Source of the DNA: Microbacterium invictum
Lineage (GTDB): Bacteria; Actinomycetota; Actinomycetes; Actinomycetales; Microbacteriaceae
DNA: 64,000 nucleotides
Assembly (NCBI RefSeq): GCF_014197265.1
Contig: NZ_JACIFH010000001.1
Coordinates: 2,666,001 to 2,730,000, forward strand
Reading direction: 5' to 3'
Shown: positions 11,617-20,167 of the stretch, piece after piece
Layout of the letters: every line of letters starts with the position of its first letter
Numbering within the stretch: the first letter of the stretch is position 1
Position numbers and translations under genes: made by a program
Notes under the pieces: generated by a model
What the model saw: the letters and a program-made list of their open reading frames with translations, nothing else
Database searches by the model: none
Told to the model about the DNA's origin: nothing

Positions 11617-11839
11617 ACCGGCGACGATAACGCTGCCGACCCACCGTCCGAATCCTCGCGGTCGGCGCCGTGGACAAATCGAGCCGAAATCTGGCCGCAT
11701 CCGGGTGGACATCTCTCGTTCGAGGCCCCGACTCCCACGGCGGCCCCGTGGACATCTTCAAGTGGTTCCTGCACTTGACTGTGACCGACGGCTTCGAGGC
11801 CACGCTCCCTGCCATCGTGCGGACCGACTGAGGTTCAGT

Positions 11840-12235
11840 TCACACGTCTACGGTGAATCCGAGATCGACGTCGCTGGCCGCGTGTCCGCCGCCGACGCCC
11901 CAGTTCTCCAGCTGGATTTCGTGCACGATCGTCGACACATGATCGCGCGGAATGCCCAGGCCTTCGAGCTCGTCGGCGATCCCGGCGTAGAGACGCCTCT
12001 TCGCATCGGCTGATCGACCCGCGAAGCAATCGATCGTGACGATCGTTCGATATTCGGGGTGCGAGAGATCAGCGGAACACGAAAAGCGATGCGGCTCGTG
12101 AACGATGAGCCGAACGTTCCGATCCTCCTGAGGGATTCGGAAGGCGGCGACGAGTGCTCGGTGAACCGCCGCCATGATTTCGGCTTCTTCTGCCTGGGTG
12201 TACCGACGGCGGACTTCGATCAGGACAGCTGGCAT
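11840..12235 (-). CDS. tautomerase family protein
   Basis: A 131-residue protein beginning Met-Pro. Proline 2 becomes the N-terminal catalytic base after Met removal in the 4-oxalocrotonate tautomerase superfamily. The chain fits the longer, about 130-residue tautomerase subgroup (IPQEDRNVRLIVHEPHRF in the middle, and C-terminal NWGVGGGHAASDV). The start lies only 7 bp after the mesD stop on the same strand, so it is the third gene of the mesX-mesD operon. A role in that pathway, for example isomerising an oxidised intermediate, is possible but unproven. Confidence 0.85.
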   Translation of the reverse strand: MPAVLIEVRRRYTQAEEAEIMAAVHRALVAAFRIPQEDRNVRLIVHEPHRFSCSADLSHPEYRTIVTIDCFAGRSADAKRRLYAGIADELEGLGIPRDHVSTIVHEIQLENWGVGGGHAASDVDLGFTVDV

Positions 12236-12242
12236 CCCGCAA

Positions 12243-13310
12243 TTATCCGGTGCCGAGTATCGGCTGTGAAGCCATACTCACCGTATCGTCGACCTCCTCG
12301 CGGACGATGGCTGCGCCCGCACTGAGCGCGCTCAGCTTCTGAAGTGCAACGTCCCGAGACAACGGGGCCATTCCGCAGTTCGTGCTCGGGATGAGCTTGT
12401 CCGCGTCGACGAACCTGAGCGCGTTCCGCAGGGTATCGGCGACCTCCTCCGGAGTTTCGATCGAATCGCTCGCCACGTCGATGGCCCCGAGCATGACCTT
12501 CTTGCCGCGGATGAGCTCGATGAGCTCCATCGGCACATGGGAGTGGAGGCACTCCAGCGAGACGATGTCGATGGTTGACCGCTGCAACAGGGGGAACGAG
12601 TGCTCGTACTGCCGCCACTGGGATCCGAGGGTCGCCTTCCAGTCGGTGTTCGCCTTGATGCCGTAGCCGTAGCAGATGTGCACGGCGGTTTCCGCGTGCA
12701 GTCCCTCGGTCGCCCTCTCTAGCGTCGCGACACCCCAGTCCCGCACCTCATCGTGGAACACGTTGAATGCGGGCTCGTCGAATTGGATGATGTCGACCCC
12801 TGCCGCCTCGAGTTCTCTCGCTTCCTGATTGAGGATCGTCGCGAACTCCCACGCCAGCTTCTCGCGGCTGCGGTAGTGGCGGTCGTAGAGCGTGTCGATC
12901 ATTGTCATCGGGCCAGGGAGCGCCCACTTGATCGGTCGATCGGTCTGCTGGCGCAGAAATCTCGCGTCGTCGACGAACACCGGCTTCTCGCGGCTCACAG
13001 CGCCGACGACGGTCGGGACGCTCGCGTCGTATCGATCGCGGATTCGAACTGTCTCACGCTGCTCGAAGTCGACCCCTGTGAGGTGCTCGATGAACGTCGT
13101 GACGAAGTGCTGGCGGGTCTGCTCGCCGTCGCTGATGATGTCGATGCCGCGCCGGCGCTGCTCGTGGACTGCGCTGCGCAGCGCATCGCGCTTGCCCTCG
13201 ACCAGCGCATCACCCTCCAGCTTCCACGGAGACCAGAGGGTCTCCGGTTCGGCGAGCCACGACGGCTTCGGCAGGCTGCCGACGATGGCGGTGGGCAGGA
13301 GCGTAGGCAT
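12243..13310 (-). CDS. mesD: folate-independent methionine synthase MesD (MetE C-terminal domain-like)
   Basis: A 355-residue single-domain homologue of the catalytic half of MetE, without the N-terminal folate-binding half. The N-terminus TLLPTAIVGSLPKPSWL is characteristic. Likely zinc and homocysteine ligands are H211 and C213 (HICYGYG), E253 (SLEC) and C312 (STNCGM). It should methylate homocysteine to methionine. MesD-family enzymes need neither methyl-folate nor cobalamin but require the DUF1852 protein MesX and oxygen. The mesX gene lies directly upstream. I chose the ATG at 13310 because GGAGAG lies 8 nt before it. An ATG at 13334 overlapping the mesX stop would add eight residues. 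Confidence 0.87.
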   Translation of the reverse strand: MPTLLPTAIVGSLPKPSWLAEPETLWSPWKLEGDALVEGKRDALRSAVHEQRRRGIDIISDGEQTRQHFVTTFIEHLTGVDFEQRETVRIRDRYDASVPTVVGAVSREKPVFVDDARFLRQQTDRPIKWALPGPMTMIDTLYDRHYRSREKLAWEFATILNQEARELEAAGVDIIQFDEPAFNVFHDEVRDWGVATLERATEGLHAETAVHICYGYGIKANTDWKATLGSQWRQYEHSFPLLQRSTIDIVSLECLHSHVPMELIELIRGKKVMLGAIDVASDSIETPEEVADTLRNALRFVDADKLIPSTNCGMAPLSRDVALQKLSALSAGAAIVREEVDDTVSMASQPILGTG

Positions 13311-13330
13311 GATCGACGACTCTCCGGTCG

Positions 13331-14323
13331 TCATCGGACGGGAGCGAGGTAGTCGGCCGCCCACTGCTCGAGTGCTCTCCCGTGGGGCTTCATGAAGTGT
13401 TCCTCCGTGTACTTTCCCTGCTTCTTCGCGAGCTGATTGCGCTCGACGCGGTCGTAGTCGATCTGCGTCCGCGAGTAGTCCTGCTGCTCCAGGCTCGGTC
13501 GGTAGATGCTCGCAGCGGGCGAGTGTGCGTTGTAGATCTCGGGTCGGTAGATCTTCTGGAACGTCTCCATCGTGCTGATGGTGCCGATGAGCTGCAGGTC
13601 GGTGTAGTCACCGATCAGATCGCCGCGGAAGTAGAACGCGAGCGGAGCGGCGCTGCCGACCGGCATGAAGTATCGGACCTGCATGCCCATGCGTCCGAAG
13701 TACGCGTCGGTCAGCGAGTAGTCTTCCTGCTCATATTCGACCCCGAGAACCGGATGCCGGTACTCGGTCCGACGGTACGTCTTGCTCGTCGACACGCTGA
13801 TGCAGATCACGGGCGGCAGCGGGAAGCGTTCGCGGTACGCGGCCGAGTCGAGGAAGTGCTGGAACAGCCTGCCGTGGAGTTCGCCGAAGTCGGCGGGGAC
13901 GGTGAACCCGGCCGCACCTTCACCTGCCGCCGGCAGCAGCACGCTGAAGTCATAATCGCGGATGTAGGACGAGAAGTTGTTGCCCACGATCCCGTGGCGG
14001 CGTTCGCCGGTGTGTCGATCGACGATCTGGACATCGAGGATCTCGAGCAGCGGGAAGCCCTGATCAGCGCCTTGCGTAGTGAACTGCAGCGCCACGGAGA
14101 CGATCTCGAGTTCGACCGTGTAGCGGTCCCGGTTCGGGTTGTCCCGGTGCGCGAGATCGTTGAAGCGGTGGTCGATCATCGCCAGGGCGTTGCGGAGGTT
14201 CTGCTGGCGGTGTTCGCCTCGGGCCAGATTGGCGAAGTTCGTGGTGATCCGCGAACTGTCCGACGGCGAGTAGTCCTCGTCGAAGCGGGTGGTGGTGATG
14301 CTGAACGTGAAGTCGTTCGCCAT
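13331..14323 (-). CDS. mesX: DUF1852 protein MesX, putative oxygenase partner of MesD
   Basis: A 330-residue protein with the conserved DUF1852 opening: ANDFTFSITTTRFDEDY, then SSRITTNFANLARGEHRQ and LRNALAMIDHRFNDLAH. It is full length for the family. DUF1852 is needed for methionine synthesis by MesD in aerobic bacteria and is proposed to be an oxygenase supplying the methyl group; the methyl donor is not known. The gene overlaps or abuts mesD on the same strand and is transcribed away from a LysR gene. I chose the ATG at 14323, where family similarity begins. The 26 residues readable upstream have no such similarity and run towards the promoter. Confidence 0.87.
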   Translation of the reverse strand: MANDFTFSITTTRFDEDYSPSDSSRITTNFANLARGEHRQQNLRNALAMIDHRFNDLAHRDNPNRDRYTVELEIVSVALQFTTQGADQGFPLLEILDVQIVDRHTGERRHGIVGNNFSSYIRDYDFSVLLPAAGEGAAGFTVPADFGELHGRLFQHFLDSAAYRERFPLPPVICISVSTSKTYRRTEYRHPVLGVEYEQEDYSLTDAYFGRMGMQVRYFMPVGSAAPLAFYFRGDLIGDYTDLQLIGTISTMETFQKIYRPEIYNAHSPAASIYRPSLEQQDYSRTQIDYDRVERNQLAKKQGKYTEEHFMKPHGRALEQWAADYLAPVR

Positions 14324-14420
14324 GAGTGGCCAATCCGGTGGCTGATCGGCCGGGCTCGGCCTTGCGGAAATCGGTACAGCCATCGTGCGGCCACATCGCA
14401 CCCATCGACAAACTCATTGT

Positions 14421-14440
14421 GACTATGCATCCCTATAGTC
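14421..14440. promoter_or_regulatory. LysR-type operator overlapping the regulator promoter
   Basis: The inverted repeat GACTAT-N8-ATAGTC lies between the divergent mesX and LysR genes. Its right arm contains TATAGT (14434-14439), a good -10 element only 8 nt before the LysR ATG. That suggests a leaderless regulator mRNA and autorepression by occlusion. The site is about 100 bp upstream of the mesX start, a normal position for LysR activation. The DNA symmetry is seen directly; binding is inferred. Confidence 0.55.
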
Positions 14441-14447
14441 TGTAGCT

Positions 14448-15389
14448 ATGGCTCGGGCGTCAGGCAGTTTCACCTTGCAGCAGCTCCACTACTTCATCGA
14501 GGTCGCTGCGGAGGGGTCGATCAGCGCCGCGGCCGACTTGCTCTACGTTTCCCAGCCGACCATGTCGGCGGCGATGAAAGACCTCGAGACCCGCGTGGGC
14601 CGCGCCCTGCTCGTCCGCTCTGCCCGCGGGGTGACCCTCACCGACGAAGGCGCAGAGTTCCTTGGATATGCCAGGCAGGTCACCGAGCAGGCAGCGCTCC
14701 TCGAGCAGCGCTACCTCGGGCGGCCACCCTCGCGCCGCCTGCTCGGGGTTTCGGCGCAGCACTACTCGTTCGTGGTCGATGCGTTCGTCCGGATGGTGAG
14801 GAGCAGCGGGGCGGCCGAATACGAGTTCTCGTTGCGTGAGACTCGCACCTGGGACATCATCGAGGACGTCCGGACCCTCCGCAGCGAGCTCGGTATCCTC
14901 TATCGGAACGATTTCAACCGGAACGTCATCGACAAACTGCTCCGGGACTCCGGTCTTGCGTTCCACCCGCTCTTCCTCGCCGAGCCGCACATCTTCATAT
15001 CCCGGAAGAATCCGCTCGCCGCGCGGGATCGCGTCGCCCTCGCCGATCTCGCCGACGTGCCGCGCCTGACCTTCGACCAGGGGGCGAACAATTCGTTCTA
15101 CTTCGCCGAGGAGATTCTCTCCACCTTGTCGAGCAAGCGGGAGATCCGGGTCTCCGACCGTGCCACCATCTTCAACCTCATGATCGGGCTCGACGGCTAC
15201 ACGATCTCGACGGGCATCATCAGCGACGACCTCGATCCCGAGATCGTCGCCATTCCGCTTGACGTCGACGAACGCATCGAGATCGGCTGGATCGGCCATT
15301 CGGCGATCCCGCTCACCCAGCAGGCACAGCGCTACCTCGATGAACTGCGGGCCGTTGTGGCCGGGTTCGGCGTGGCGCTGCTCGGGTAG
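14448..15389 (+). CDS. LysR-family transcriptional regulator
   Basis: A 313-residue LysR protein. The N-terminal winged HTH is at about residues 8-66 (LQQLHYFIEVAAEGSISAAA, then LYVSQPTMSAAMKDLE), followed by a periplasmic-binding-like effector domain. It is divergent from mesX-mesD-tautomerase with a symmetric site between them. It is therefore the probable regulator of methionine synthesis here, perhaps sensing homocysteine, methionine or sulfur status. The ATG at 14448 is the only start consistent with the HTH and the -10 element. Confidence 0.9.
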   Translation: MARASGSFTLQQLHYFIEVAAEGSISAAADLLYVSQPTMSAAMKDLETRVGRALLVRSARGVTLTDEGAEFLGYARQVTEQAALLEQRYLGRPPSRRLLGVSAQHYSFVVDAFVRMVRSSGAAEYEFSLRETRTWDIIEDVRTLRSELGILYRNDFNRNVIDKLLRDSGLAFHPLFLAEPHIFISRKNPLAARDRVALADLADVPRLTFDQGANNSFYFAEEILSTLSSKREIRVSDRATIFNLMIGLDGYTISTGIISDDLDPEIVAIPLDVDERIEIGWIGHSAIPLTQQAQRYLDELRAVVAGFGVALLG

Positions 15390-15852: not shown

Positions 15853-17043
15853 ATGCGCACCGAGCTCTACATCAATGAACGCTTCGGCGAGATCACCAAG
15901 AATCCGACAGGCGCGTGGACTCACCCGTACTTCCTCCCTGTGTCGATCCCTCGTGAGTTTGCGCTGACCGCTGAGTCGATGGCGGCCGTCTCGAGAGCAG
16001 ACTTGGCACTCGGTCGGCTCTCGGGCCTCGCGATGCTGATCGATGACCCCGAACTCTTACTGGGGCCGTCGATGATGCAGGAAGCGCTCTCGAGCTCGCG
16101 CATCGAGGGGACTCGGGCGTCCCTCAGCGATGTGCTCAGCGCCGCGAGCGTCGATGAGCCGATCGAAGATGAGAATCTCCGCGAGGTAAGCAACTACCTC
16201 GACGCCGCCGCTCAAGGCACCGATCTGATGAATGCCTGGCCGCTGACGCAGCGGTTCTTCTGCGCCCTGCACGCCACCCTGCTCGCCAATGTGCGCGGCG
16301 AGGAGAAGTTCCCGGGCGAGCTGCGGAGGTCACCGGTCTGGATCGGATCGCCGAACGCCCGACCTGAGACCGCGCGCTTCATCCCGCCGCATCACGACAG
16401 AATCGGAGAGCTCCTCGCGGATTGGGAGCGCTTCGTGAATGAGCCGTCGACGATGCCGCCGGCGTTGCGCGCCGCCCTGATGCACTACCAGTTTGAGACG
16501 ATCCATCCGTTCCTCGACGGCAACGGTCGCATCGGCCGGTTGCTGATCGGCTTCCTCCTCATCTCCGATGGTGTGCTGAGCGCGCCGATTCTGCCGATCT
16601 CGGGATACTTCGAGCGCAATCGCGACGAGTACTACGACCGTCTACAGGCAGTCCGCGAACGCGGCGAGATGGAGGAATGGCTGCAATTCTTCTGCGAAGG
16701 AGTGGAGCAACAGGCGAATCACTCCGCCGCACGTATCCGTGCCCTGGTCGCGGTCCGGGAACGCTACCGGCGAGAGACCATCAACGATCGTTCCGCGCTC
16801 ACGTCGGTCGTGGATCTGATCTTCCGAAACCCGGTCGTCACAGTCGCGGCCGTCATGCGTCATGCCGGTGTCAGTCGCCCGGCCGCGTCCGCGGCACTCC
16901 GGCGCGCCGAGGCACGCGGCTGGCTGCGGTCGGCGGGACGCTGGGGACGGGGAGGTCGCGAGAGGTGGGTGGCCACAGAGGTGTGGTCGGCTGTCTCCAG
17001 CGAAAAAGCTTTCGGCCAGGAGTCGACGGAAGGACCACGATGA
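15853..17043 (+). CDS. Fic/DOC family adenylyltransferase-like protein
   Basis: A 396-residue Fic protein. It has an N-terminal helical region, an inhibitory-helix motif S-x-x-x-E-G at residues 81-86 (SSRIEG), the full active-site motif HPFLDGNGRIGR at 218-229, and a C-terminal winged helix (VTVAAVMRHAGVSRPAASAA). It belongs to the self-inhibited class with the alpha-inh helix ahead of the Fic core. The expected reaction is AMP transfer from ATP to protein hydroxyls. All catalytic residues are intact. AAAGGAG lies just before the ATG. The next segment is an hsdR remnant, and Fic genes often sit in type I restriction loci, so this gene may be a survivor of a lost defence island. Confidence 0.9.
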   Translation: MRTELYINERFGEITKNPTGAWTHPYFLPVSIPREFALTAESMAAVSRADLALGRLSGLAMLIDDPELLLGPSMMQEALSSSRIEGTRASLSDVLSAASVDEPIEDENLREVSNYLDAAAQGTDLMNAWPLTQRFFCALHATLLANVRGEEKFPGELRRSPVWIGSPNARPETARFIPPHHDRIGELLADWERFVNEPSTMPPALRAALMHYQFETIHPFLDGNGRIGRLLIGFLLISDGVLSAPILPISGYFERNRDEYYDRLQAVRERGEMEEWLQFFCEGVEQQANHSAARIRALVAVRERYRRETINDRSALTSVVDLIFRNPVVTVAAVMRHAGVSRPAASAALRRAEARGWLRSAGRWGRGGRERWVATEVWSAVSSEKAFGQESTEGPR

Positions 17044-17383: not shown

Positions 17384-18775
17384 TCAGTTCCCCACTGACA
17401 CCCGGGCGTCCACCTTATAGCTCGACCCCCGATGCTCGTCAGGCAGCCGGTCGCCGCGGCCGTGGAGCTTCTGGCGCAGGGTGCCGGGCGAGTAGTCGGT
17501 CTGGTAGCGCCCGCGGCGCTGCAGTTCCGGCACGACGAACTCGACGATGTCCTCGAAGGTGCCCGGGGTGATGGCGTAGCTGAGGTTGAAGCCGTCGACG
17601 TCGGTCTCGGCGACCCAGGCCTCGAGCTGGTCGGCGACTTCCGCGGCGGACCCGACGATCCGCGTGCCGAACCCGCCGATCTTGCCGCGCTCGGCAAGGG
17701 TGCGGATGGTCCACTCGTCACCGGCATCCGCTTCTTCCTTGAGCGAGGTGACCAGCGACTGGATCGCGTTGCTCTTGACGTCGCCGATCGGGTCGTCGAG
17801 ACCGTAGGTCGACAGGTCAGCGCCCATCCACCCCGACATAAGCACGAGTGCTGCTTCGTCGCTGGCGTACGACAGGTACTCCGCCTCTTTGGCGCGTGCC
17901 TTCTCGGGCGTCTCGTCGACGATGACCGTCGCCATCGTGTAGATGCGCGCCGCATAGCGGTCGCGGCCGGCGGCCTCGAGGGCGTCACGGATCTGCCGCA
18001 CCTGGGTGGCGACGGTCCGCTTCGACGGAGCCGCGACGAAGATCGCCTCGGCGTTCTCGGCCGCGAAGGCGATGCCGCGCGCAGATGCGCCGGCCTGGTA
18101 GATCACGGGCGATCGCTGCGGCGAAGGTTCGACGAGGTGGATGCCGGGAACCCGGAAGTGGGCGCCGTCATGCTCAATGGGGTGCACCTTCGCCGGATCG
18201 GTGAACACACCGGTCTCGCGATCGCGCAGCACCGCGTCGTCCTCCCACGACCCCTCCCACAGCTTGTACAGCACCTCGAGGTACTCGTCGGCGATGTCGT
18301 AGCGCTGGTCGTGCTCCACCTGGTCGTCATGGCCCATGTTGCGGGCGGCCGAGGGCAGGTAGCCGGTCACGACATTCCAACCGACCCTGCCCTTCGTGAG
18401 GTGGTCGAGCGTCGACATCCGCCGAGCGAAGGGATAGGGGTGCTCGTAGGCGGTACCTGCGGTCACGCCGAAGCCGAGATGCTCCGTCACAGCGGCCATC
18501 GCGGAGACGACCAGCAGCGGGTCGGTCACCGGCACCTGGGATCCGTGGGTGATGGCCGCGTCGGCCGTCCCCGCGTACACGTCGTAGGTCCCGAGCACGT
18601 CGGCGATGAACACGCCGTCGAACCGGCCGCGTTCGAGCAACTTCGCCAGCTCAGTCCAGTACGCAATGTCGGTGTAGCGCTGCGCCTGGTCATCGGGGTG
18701 CCGCCAGAGGCCACTCGAGATGTGACCGACGCAGCTCATGTCGAACGCATTGAACCGGATGGGGCGAGTGCTCAT
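17384..18775 (-). CDS. LLM-class flavin-dependent monooxygenase (NtaA/SnaA/DszA family)
   Basis: A 463-residue reduced-flavin-dependent monooxygenase. The NtaA/SnaA/DszA pattern is clear: GLWRHPDDQAQRYTDIAYW near the start, FIADVLGTYD, EHPYPFARRMSTLDHLTKGR, GWNVVTGYL, PVIYQAGASARG, and a C-terminal FVVPELQRRGR. Members use FMNH2 from a separate reductase to hydroxylate or cleave organosulfur or nitrogen compounds. The ATG at 18775 has AAGGTGG upstream. It is divergent from two SfnB/DszC-like genes and an APC permease, suggesting one scavenging pathway. No flavin reductase gene is next to it. Confidence 0.9.
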   Translation of the reverse strand: MSTRPIRFNAFDMSCVGHISSGLWRHPDDQAQRYTDIAYWTELAKLLERGRFDGVFIADVLGTYDVYAGTADAAITHGSQVPVTDPLLVVSAMAAVTEHLGFGVTAGTAYEHPYPFARRMSTLDHLTKGRVGWNVVTGYLPSAARNMGHDDQVEHDQRYDIADEYLEVLYKLWEGSWEDDAVLRDRETGVFTDPAKVHPIEHDGAHFRVPGIHLVEPSPQRSPVIYQAGASARGIAFAAENAEAIFVAAPSKRTVATQVRQIRDALEAAGRDRYAARIYTMATVIVDETPEKARAKEAEYLSYASDEAALVLMSGWMGADLSTYGLDDPIGDVKSNAIQSLVTSLKEEADAGDEWTIRTLAERGKIGGFGTRIVGSAAEVADQLEAWVAETDVDGFNLSYAITPGTFEDIVEFVVPELQRRGRYQTDYSPGTLRQKLHGRGDRLPDEHRGSSYKVDARVSVGN

Positions 18776-18916
18776 AACGGATGCCACCTTTCTCGAAGGC
18801 CCATCCTGGTGCTGCGTCGACCGGACCGGAAACGGACCGACATCGGGCGTCACGCGGCGTTACGAAAGGTCACACCCGCAGATCGCGCAGGCCATGATGC
18901 GCCATCATCCTTGATC

Positions 18917-20167
18917 ATGACCATCGCCGAATCCCCCTCGCCTGCCCTGGGCTCGTCACAGCCGACAACCTGGTGGCACGGCGCCGCCACGCCCGACGAG
19001 CTCGGGCGGTGGAGCGCCGTGGCACAAGAGGTTGCCGACGCGCTCGCCGCCGACGTCGTAGAGCGCGACCGCGCGAACGCGCTGCCGGTCGCACCGGTGC
19101 AGCTGCTGCGCGACGCCGGGCTGGCGAACCTGCTCGTCCCGGTCGAACTCGGCGGGCACGGGGCGCACTGGGAGACCGCCTTCACCGTGGCGCGCATCAT
19201 CGCGCGAGTGGACGCGTCGGTCGCGCAGATCCTCGGGTACAGCTGGCTGAACCAGGCATGTGCGATCTTCTACGGGACCGATGCCGAGGTGACGCGCGAC
19301 GTGCTGCGCCGCAGCGCGAGCCTGAGAGCGGTGTGGGCCGACTCGTTCAACCCGGTCAGCCCCGATCTCTCGCTCGTCTTCGACACCGACCGGTACCTGC
19401 TGAACGGCCGCAAGGCGTTCGCAACGGGCGCGGCGGTGGCCGATGTGATCGTGGCGGGGGCGGTGGCCGAAGGCGGCGCACGTGACGGGCAGTTCCTCGT
19501 GCTCGCTCTCGACGCCCACCGTGGCGGCATCGCCCACCTCGGCGACTGGGACAACATCGGCTATCGCGCCTCCGCGAGCGGGGGCGTGGAGTACACCGAC
19601 GTCCTGGTGACGGATGCCGATGTTATCGGGGTCGACACCGAGGAGCCGTTCTCGTCCGTGGTGACGCCGGGCGTGCAGCTGCTGTTCGGGAACATCTACC
19701 TCGGCATCGCCGAGGGTGCGTTGGCGCAGGCGGCGGAGCTGACGCGCGCCCGGCCCAACTCCTGGTTCCTCTCCGGTGTCGACCGCTACGCGGACGACCC
19801 GATCACCCATCGTGTGTTCGGCGAGCTGGTGTCGCGCACCACGGCGGTGGAGGCGCTCGCCGACAGGCTGGGTCGCCAGTACGACGAAGTGGTCGCGCTC
19901 GGGCACGCCACCACCGCCGACGACCGCGCTGCCATCGAACTTGCGGTCGCGCGACTGAAGGTCGTCGCCACCGAAGTCGGCCTGGATGTGGCCGGCCGTG
20001 TCTTCGAACTCACCGGCGCCAGTTCGACCAAGAGCGCTACCGGGCTCGACCTGCACTGGCGCAACATCCGCACACACAGCCTGCACGACCCGGTGGACTA
20101 CAAGCGGATCGAGGTCGGCGCGCACTTCCTGCGCGGCACCGTCCAGCCGGTGAGCCTGTACACATGA
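18917..20167 (+). CDS. SfnB/DszC-like acyl-CoA dehydrogenase-fold monooxygenase 1
   Basis: A 416-residue flavoprotein with the acyl-CoA dehydrogenase fold. The N-terminal helical domain contains LLRDAGLANLLVPVELGGHG, the middle beta domain follows, and a C-terminal DLHWRNIRTHSLHDPVDYK resembles DszC and SfnB proteins rather than true acyl-CoA dehydrogenases. No acyl-CoA dehydrogenase catalytic glutamate context is evident. Such proteins oxygenate organosulfur compounds with reduced flavin. The start at 18917 is the first ATG after the divergent promoter region. The gene overlaps the next by 4 bp (ATGA). Confidence 0.85.
   Translation: MTIAESPSPALGSSQPTTWWHGAATPDELGRWSAVAQEVADALAADVVERDRANALPVAPVQLLRDAGLANLLVPVELGGHGAHWETAFTVARIIARVDASVAQILGYSWLNQACAIFYGTDAEVTRDVLRRSASLRAVWADSFNPVSPDLSLVFDTDRYLLNGRKAFATGAAVADVIVAGAVAEGGARDGQFLVLALDAHRGGIAHLGDWDNIGYRASASGGVEYTDVLVTDADVIGVDTEEPFSSVVTPGVQLLFGNIYLGIAEGALAQAAELTRARPNSWFLSGVDRYADDPITHRVFGELVSRTTAVEALADRLGRQYDEVVALGHATTADDRAAIELAVARLKVVATEVGLDVAGRVFELTGASSTKSATGLDLHWRNIRTHSLHDPVDYKRIEVGAHFLRGTVQPVSLYT

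Follow-up and report, generated by a model that had tools for sequence, protein, structure and literature searches.

The mesX-mesD methionine synthase genes of Microbacterium invictum, their divergent lysR gene and an adjoining tautomerase gene

Price, Deutschbauer and Arkin (2021; PMC7857596) demonstrated in vivo that the core methionine synthase MesD requires MesX, a DUF1852 protein, and O2. In the available portion of their text, the O2-dependent support of MesD by MesX is described for E. coli carrying the Sphingomonas koreensis genes, and mesX plus mesD suffice to rescue the E. coli mutants delta-metE and delta-metF. A flavin reductase neighbour of mesXD is already noted there.

Here, we describe a mesXD locus in a stretch of 64,000 nucleotides of M. 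invictum DNA, referred to below as the window. The original prediction placed mesX, mesD and a tautomerase gene on the minus strand, with 7 nt between the mesD stop and the tautomerase ATG, and this layout was confirmed (Table 1). It assigned the pair to O2-dependent, folate-independent methionine synthesis, and it saw in the tautomerase a hint of what the methyl donor is. The first assignment stands, through the experiments done elsewhere (PMC7857596, available portion), and the second is not supported. We consider it highly probable that mesXD is an ordinary methionine synthase unit, probably the sole synthase and under LysR control, and that the tautomerase gene is a mobile passenger with its own leaderless-type promoter.

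The mesX-mesD pair and the methyl-folate route

Table 1. Features of the mesXD locus (positions in the window).
Feature	Position	Strand	Description
mesX (DUF1852)	13331..14323	-	330 aa; putative O2-dependent partner of MesD; PF08908
mesD	12243..13310	-	355 aa core methionine synthase; PRK09121; similar to 3RPD
Tautomerase gene	11840..12235	-	131 aa; Pro-1 tautomerase superfamily, PF14552/PF01361; judged a passenger
mesD 3' end	12243..12267	-	Codons Q-P-I-L-G-T-G-stop; 25 nt homologous to DNA that precedes a tautomerase gene in a mesX-less congener
Promoter-like site of the tautomerase gene	12242..12270	-	TTCACA (12270-12265), 17 nt, GATAAT (12247-12242), 6 nt, ATG
lysR	14448..15389	+	LysR-family regulator gene, candidate mesXD regulator in Actinobacteria; HTH_1, LysR_substrate
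CTAT-N8-ATAG inverted repeat	14423..14438		Candidate regulator site, proposed function; overlies the -10-like TATAGT of lysR

The identity of the pair, as originally predicted, is borne out by family and structure matches. MesX matches PF08908 with 549.9 bits (cut-off 25) over model positions 1-323 of 323. Eighty MesX columns are invariant across 92 sequences, and alignment A1, of 90 rows, gives the identical set. MesX was modelled by AlphaFold2 with a mean pLDDT of 91.2 and a pTM of 0.91; among the solved structures compared with the model, a GNAT-like fold being considered, there was no clear relative, and the modelled fold gives no mechanism yet. The mesX stop and the mesD start are separated by 20 nt. 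MesD matches the NCBIfam model PRK09121 'methionine synthase' with 662 bits (cut-off 392) and PDB chain 3RPD with 605.7 bits. Its catalytic domain is of the PRK09121 type, and a folate domain is absent. The candidate zinc ligands His211, Cys213, Glu253 and Cys312 are all present, these positions being ones that we take to be ligands by analogy with MetE. Ser12, Glu63 and Asp178 of MesD match the homocysteine residues given for 3RPD by Price et al. MesX is present at 92 of 92 other mesD loci; this comparison set consists of the best 80 of at least 586 confirmed matches plus 12 loci from relatives, and some loci of the set are truncated at contig ends.

Judged from its sequence, mesX-mesD is a complete and ordinary copy of the known O2-dependent, folate-independent methionine synthase. 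We suggest that it acts as follows. Zinc and homocysteine would be held by MesD, as in 3RPD. The methyl group would come from a metabolite through MesX, which would use O2 and, probably, flavin reduced by an enzyme whose gene lies elsewhere in the genome.

The genome containing the window shows no TIGR02082 match, indicative of MetH, and matches TIGR01371, the MetE model, only at the level of MesD (E 1.2e-29). A strong PF02219 (MetF) match is absent; two weak ones are present, the best with E 4.2e-9. Thus this strain probably has no methionine synthase other than MesXD. The sole other protein with a weak PF01717 (Meth_synt_2) match has 369 aa and scores 40 bits over model positions 145-307; its gene lies far from mesXD (G000:C1:2967700-2968248; L152:1021-2127).

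The distribution of these enzymes was surveyed in 295 Microbacterium genomes. Genes were classed by PF02219 at E <= 1e-35 for MetF, TIGR02082 at E <= 1e-180 for MetH and TIGR01371 at E <= 1e-100 for MetE, thresholds chosen after the lists, which are bimodal, had been seen. The MetF calls are of the PF02219 type only; a flavin-independent MetF is also named in the available portion of Price et al. (PMC7857596). MesX occurs in 146 genomes, 136 of which have no MetE, MetH or strong MetF. MetE and MetF occur without MesX in 126 genomes, 51 of these also having MetH. The mixed classes are small: MesX with MetH and MetF (6 genomes), MesX with MetE and MetF (3), MesX with MetF only (1, G222), MetH without MesX and MetE (2, MetF being present in one), and MetE with MetH but not MetF (1). 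That is, a strong PF02219 match accompanies MetE or MetH in 136 of 138 genomes, the two exceptions being 79% and 93% complete, and is found in 1 of the 137 genomes in which MesX is the sole synthase detected. MesX and the methyl-folate route are nearly mutually exclusive in Microbacterium, although p-values for this exclusion overstate the case, since the species are not independent.

Two weak PF02219 matches in the window's genome might be read as a divergent MetF that also makes 5-methyl-folate, so that MesXD would not be truly folate-independent here; a weak match of this kind is present in 51 of the 136 MesX genomes in which strong MetF is missing, among them the window's. We give this reading little credence. 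Across the 295 genomes MetF of the PF02219 type tracks MetE and MetH, the window's genome has neither enzyme to use 5-methyl-folate, and mesXD functions in E. coli delta-metF (PMC7857596, available portion).

The genus provides a cleaner test than the published one: 136 of 137 MesX-only genomes are without strong MetF (PF02219), against 69% of 85 sole-MesD proteomes without MetF in the survey as given in the available portion of PMC7857596. On balance, we favour the proposal that about half of Microbacterium species dropped the methyl-folate branch and obtain the methyl group from a non-folate source via MesX, that MesXD and metF-metE are interchangeable modules, and that the actinobacterial module comes with a dedicated LysR protein. 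Of lasting use are the exchange of modules among congeners and the dedicated LysR gene. Congeners paired so that one has the MesXD and the other the MetE module lend themselves to tracing of the methyl source. A further 20 of the 295 genomes, several of them complete, have no MesX, MetE, MetH or strong MetF, though weak PF02219 matches occur in 15 of them; the 20 may be methionine auxotrophs or bearers of another synthase.

The tautomerase gene and its distribution

The tautomerase scores 56.6 bits against PF14552 (cut-off 28) and 53.9 bits against PF01361 (cut-off 22). With the start Met counted, its Pro is residue 2 and its Asp residue 38, i.e., Pro-1 and Asp-37. The nearest solved relatives include the FG41 malonate semialdehyde decarboxylase, 3MJZ. 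An assignment to the 4-oxalocrotonate tautomerase equivalog of NCBIfam was rejected, the best score being 31.2 bits vs. 86 for PRK01964. The GC content at third codon positions is 0.70 in this gene vs. 0.85-0.87 in mesD, mesX and lysR.

The original prediction made the tautomerase a working third component, which would tautomerise the methyl donor or a product released by MesX. The shared strand, the 7-nt gap, the retention of Pro-1 and Asp-37, and the failure to find a terminator-like site between the genes agree with that idea. Its distribution in the 295 genomes does not. At E <= 1e-3, a tautomerase match is found in 49 genomes, 27 of which also have MesX, the two genes being on one contig in 13 and on different contigs in 14 (several drafts). 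In the window's genome they are 1.5 kb apart, and in the other 12 same-contig genomes their separation ranges from 47 kb to 2.7 Mb; only the window's genome, 1 of 146 with MesX, has them closer than 47 kb on one contig. Full-length matches at 51% identity or more occur in 12 genomes, the window's included; one further genome has a match at 38%, and one 68% match is broken by a contig end. Of the 13 genomes with a full-length tautomerase, 5 have MesX, a co-occurrence at chance level (Fisher p = 0.57), and G012 has an orthologue of 76% identity and no MesX.

The survey of how often a tautomerase follows mesD was also carried beyond the genus. An HMM of the tautomerase subfamily found none at the 92 other mesXD loci (best 80 of at least 586, plus 12; some clipped by contig ends). 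In 50 of the mesXD genomes, PF01361 gave 71 matches in 35 genomes; seven overlapped a mesXD locus by coordinates, and none of the seven read as a tautomerase. Since mesX and mesD alone rescue the E. coli mutants (PMC7857596, available portion), the tautomerase is not needed; E. coli was not among the control genomes with a PF01361 match. With these counts and with a junction that has the marks of a joined-in gene with its own promoter-like site (see below), we regard a role as third component as very improbable, although recent functional recruitment in one genome could have occurred. The tautomerase carries no information on the methyl donor of MesXD, and a misleading lead is thereby removed before assay.

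The surroundings of the tautomerase gene in 12 congeners have no gene family in common with the window neighbourhood except one Fic homologue, and three of the more distant loci have genes in common among themselves. The Fic-domain protein of the window (15853-17043) is encoded near lysR, and a Fic protein of 49% identity (L060:8659-9855) adjoins the tautomerase gene of G059; this is possibly a mobile neighbourhood in common, or chance. On the other side of the tautomerase gene, between it and a sugar-catabolism cluster, the segment 9835-11712 holds what are probably the remains of genes, namely a C-terminal piece of a DeoR protein (PF00455, under the cut-off) and a DUF2332 protein that aligns best over model positions 81-237 of 334.

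The junction of mesD and the tautomerase gene

Window positions 11812-12267 are 85.3% identical (blastn) to the tautomerase locus L056 of G039, a genome without MesX. The homology reaches into mesD and takes in the last 25 nt of its reading frame, which encode seven codons and the stop. The MesD tail past residue 340 is unlike the tails of the eight relatives inspected, which are shorter. The mesD stop (12245-12243) lies within the GATAAT of a -10 box, and the tautomerase ATG (at 12235) follows that box after 6 nt, a leaderless-type spacing. The 7 nt between the two genes are thus the final base of the -10-like box and the 6-nt gap. In the segment 11700-14700 this is the only promoter-like site; shuffles give 0.5 on average, so the site is not significant alone. 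Among 13 relatives of the tautomerase in other congeners, none adjoined by mesXD, GAYAAT is found at the same distance from the ATG in seven, TATCGT in three, and neither in three.

Because the box and gap also precede relatives without mesXD, the 7-nt spacing on its own does not establish a mesD-tautomerase operon. We conclude that it would represent promoter geometry rather than operon design. Most likely, the gene came by recombination with its own leaderless-type promoter, which would have been joined to the mesD end in such a way that the mesD stop now sits inside the -10 box. As a promoter, the candidate site is a consensus match only, and its activity is putative. From the junction we infer that the tautomerase gene is a passenger.

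The scan of 11700-14700 found no terminator-like site between mesD and the tautomerase gene or elsewhere in that segment, so read-through from mesD is possible. It is therefore conceivable that the tautomerase, though chemically unrelated to MesXD, has been captured transcriptionally and is now under mesXD/LysR control, as the 7-nt gap would also allow. We consider such capture unlikely, though the least so of the alternatives, since the gene still has the -10 box of its relatives, at their distance from the start codon, and hence an independent start. A passenger with its own promoter remains our preferred reading.

The divergent lysR gene, flavin reductases and comparison with known systems

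At 47 of 48 other actinobacterial loci, mesX has a lysR gene next to it in divergent orientation, usually at about 120 bp; at the 48th it is non-divergent. LysR identity at these 48 loci is 82.3-93.3% and exceeds that of MesX (65-85%) at every one. The CTAT and ATAG half-sites are each kept in at least 90% of the 48 aligned mesX-lysR intergenic regions, all drawn from the same set (best 80 of at least 586, plus 12). The divergent lysR gene, absent from the original prediction, belongs to the mesXD unit. Its conserved position and half-sites suggest that the LysR protein controls mesX-mesD. The gene provides a handle, as the compound that induces it may point to what MesX uses or makes.

A PF01613 flavin reductase gene directly follows mesD at 45 of the 92 other loci (16 of 49 actinobacterial, 29 of 43 others) and lies on the opposite side at one further locus, again among the best 80 of at least 586, plus 12. 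Representatives of three reductase groups were confirmed by Pfam. The window's genome encodes two PF01613 proteins, both unlinked to mesXD. One of these (G000:C1:3473399-3473953) shares 72-77% identity with the reductase encoded behind mesD at loci of Arthrobacter type and at some Microbacterium loci. Among sampled genomes, 25 of 41 with MesX and 9 of 39 others had a close relative of this protein (p = 0.0007); it is enriched in MesX genomes, not obligatory. In Acinetobacter baumannii, according to the available portion of PMC12892962, added vitamin B12 lowers expression of the DUF1852 gene (log2 -8.33) and of a flavin reductase gene whose locus number is close to it (log2 -2.52). Because of the flavin reductase linkage, a reaction with reduced flavin is likely, and MesX would be the user. 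Free flavin from general reductases must then be enough in many hosts, E. coli included.

Three observations concern the neighbourhoods of such genes. C4 antisense RNAs of phage type (L102:7960-8538 and L111:7864-7948) lie just 3' of Acinetobacter mesX-mesD-flavin reductase genes. A contig filed as Bacillus subtilis SK6B4 (L101) carries mesXD with an Acinetobacter-type flavin reductase and may be contamination. Near LysR-mesXD in the window (17384-20167), a gene for an NtaA/DmoA-type FMN-dependent monooxygenase (TIGR03860, 567.6 bits) lies beside an acyl-CoA-dehydrogenase-like gene; the two resemble a pair for the oxidation of organosulfur or similar compounds, which would likewise need reduced flavin.

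The locus may be compared with three known systems, as follows. The malonate-semialdehyde-decarboxylase-like tautomerases (PDB 3MJZ) resemble the passenger in length, Pro-1 and Asp-37; the score is low (39.0 bits), and the gene context is not in common. With MetE, the catalytic domain of MesD is distantly related (TIGR01371, 106.9 bits), but MesD is without the folate-binding N-terminal half. The match covers model positions 425-753 only and is far under the cut-off of 929.95, and a MetE identity for MesD was rejected. With the MesD-MesX system of Price, Deutschbauer and Arkin (PMC7857596, available portion), the locus shares both families, the order mesX-mesD, the homocysteine residues and the candidate zinc residues. 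It is a known system, correctly recognised, whose one novel-looking feature is a strain-specific recombination. LysR goes unmentioned in the available portion of that text. In contrast to the published system, the pair described here is without an adjoining flavin reductase gene, is followed by a passenger tautomerase gene, and is accompanied by a divergent lysR gene.
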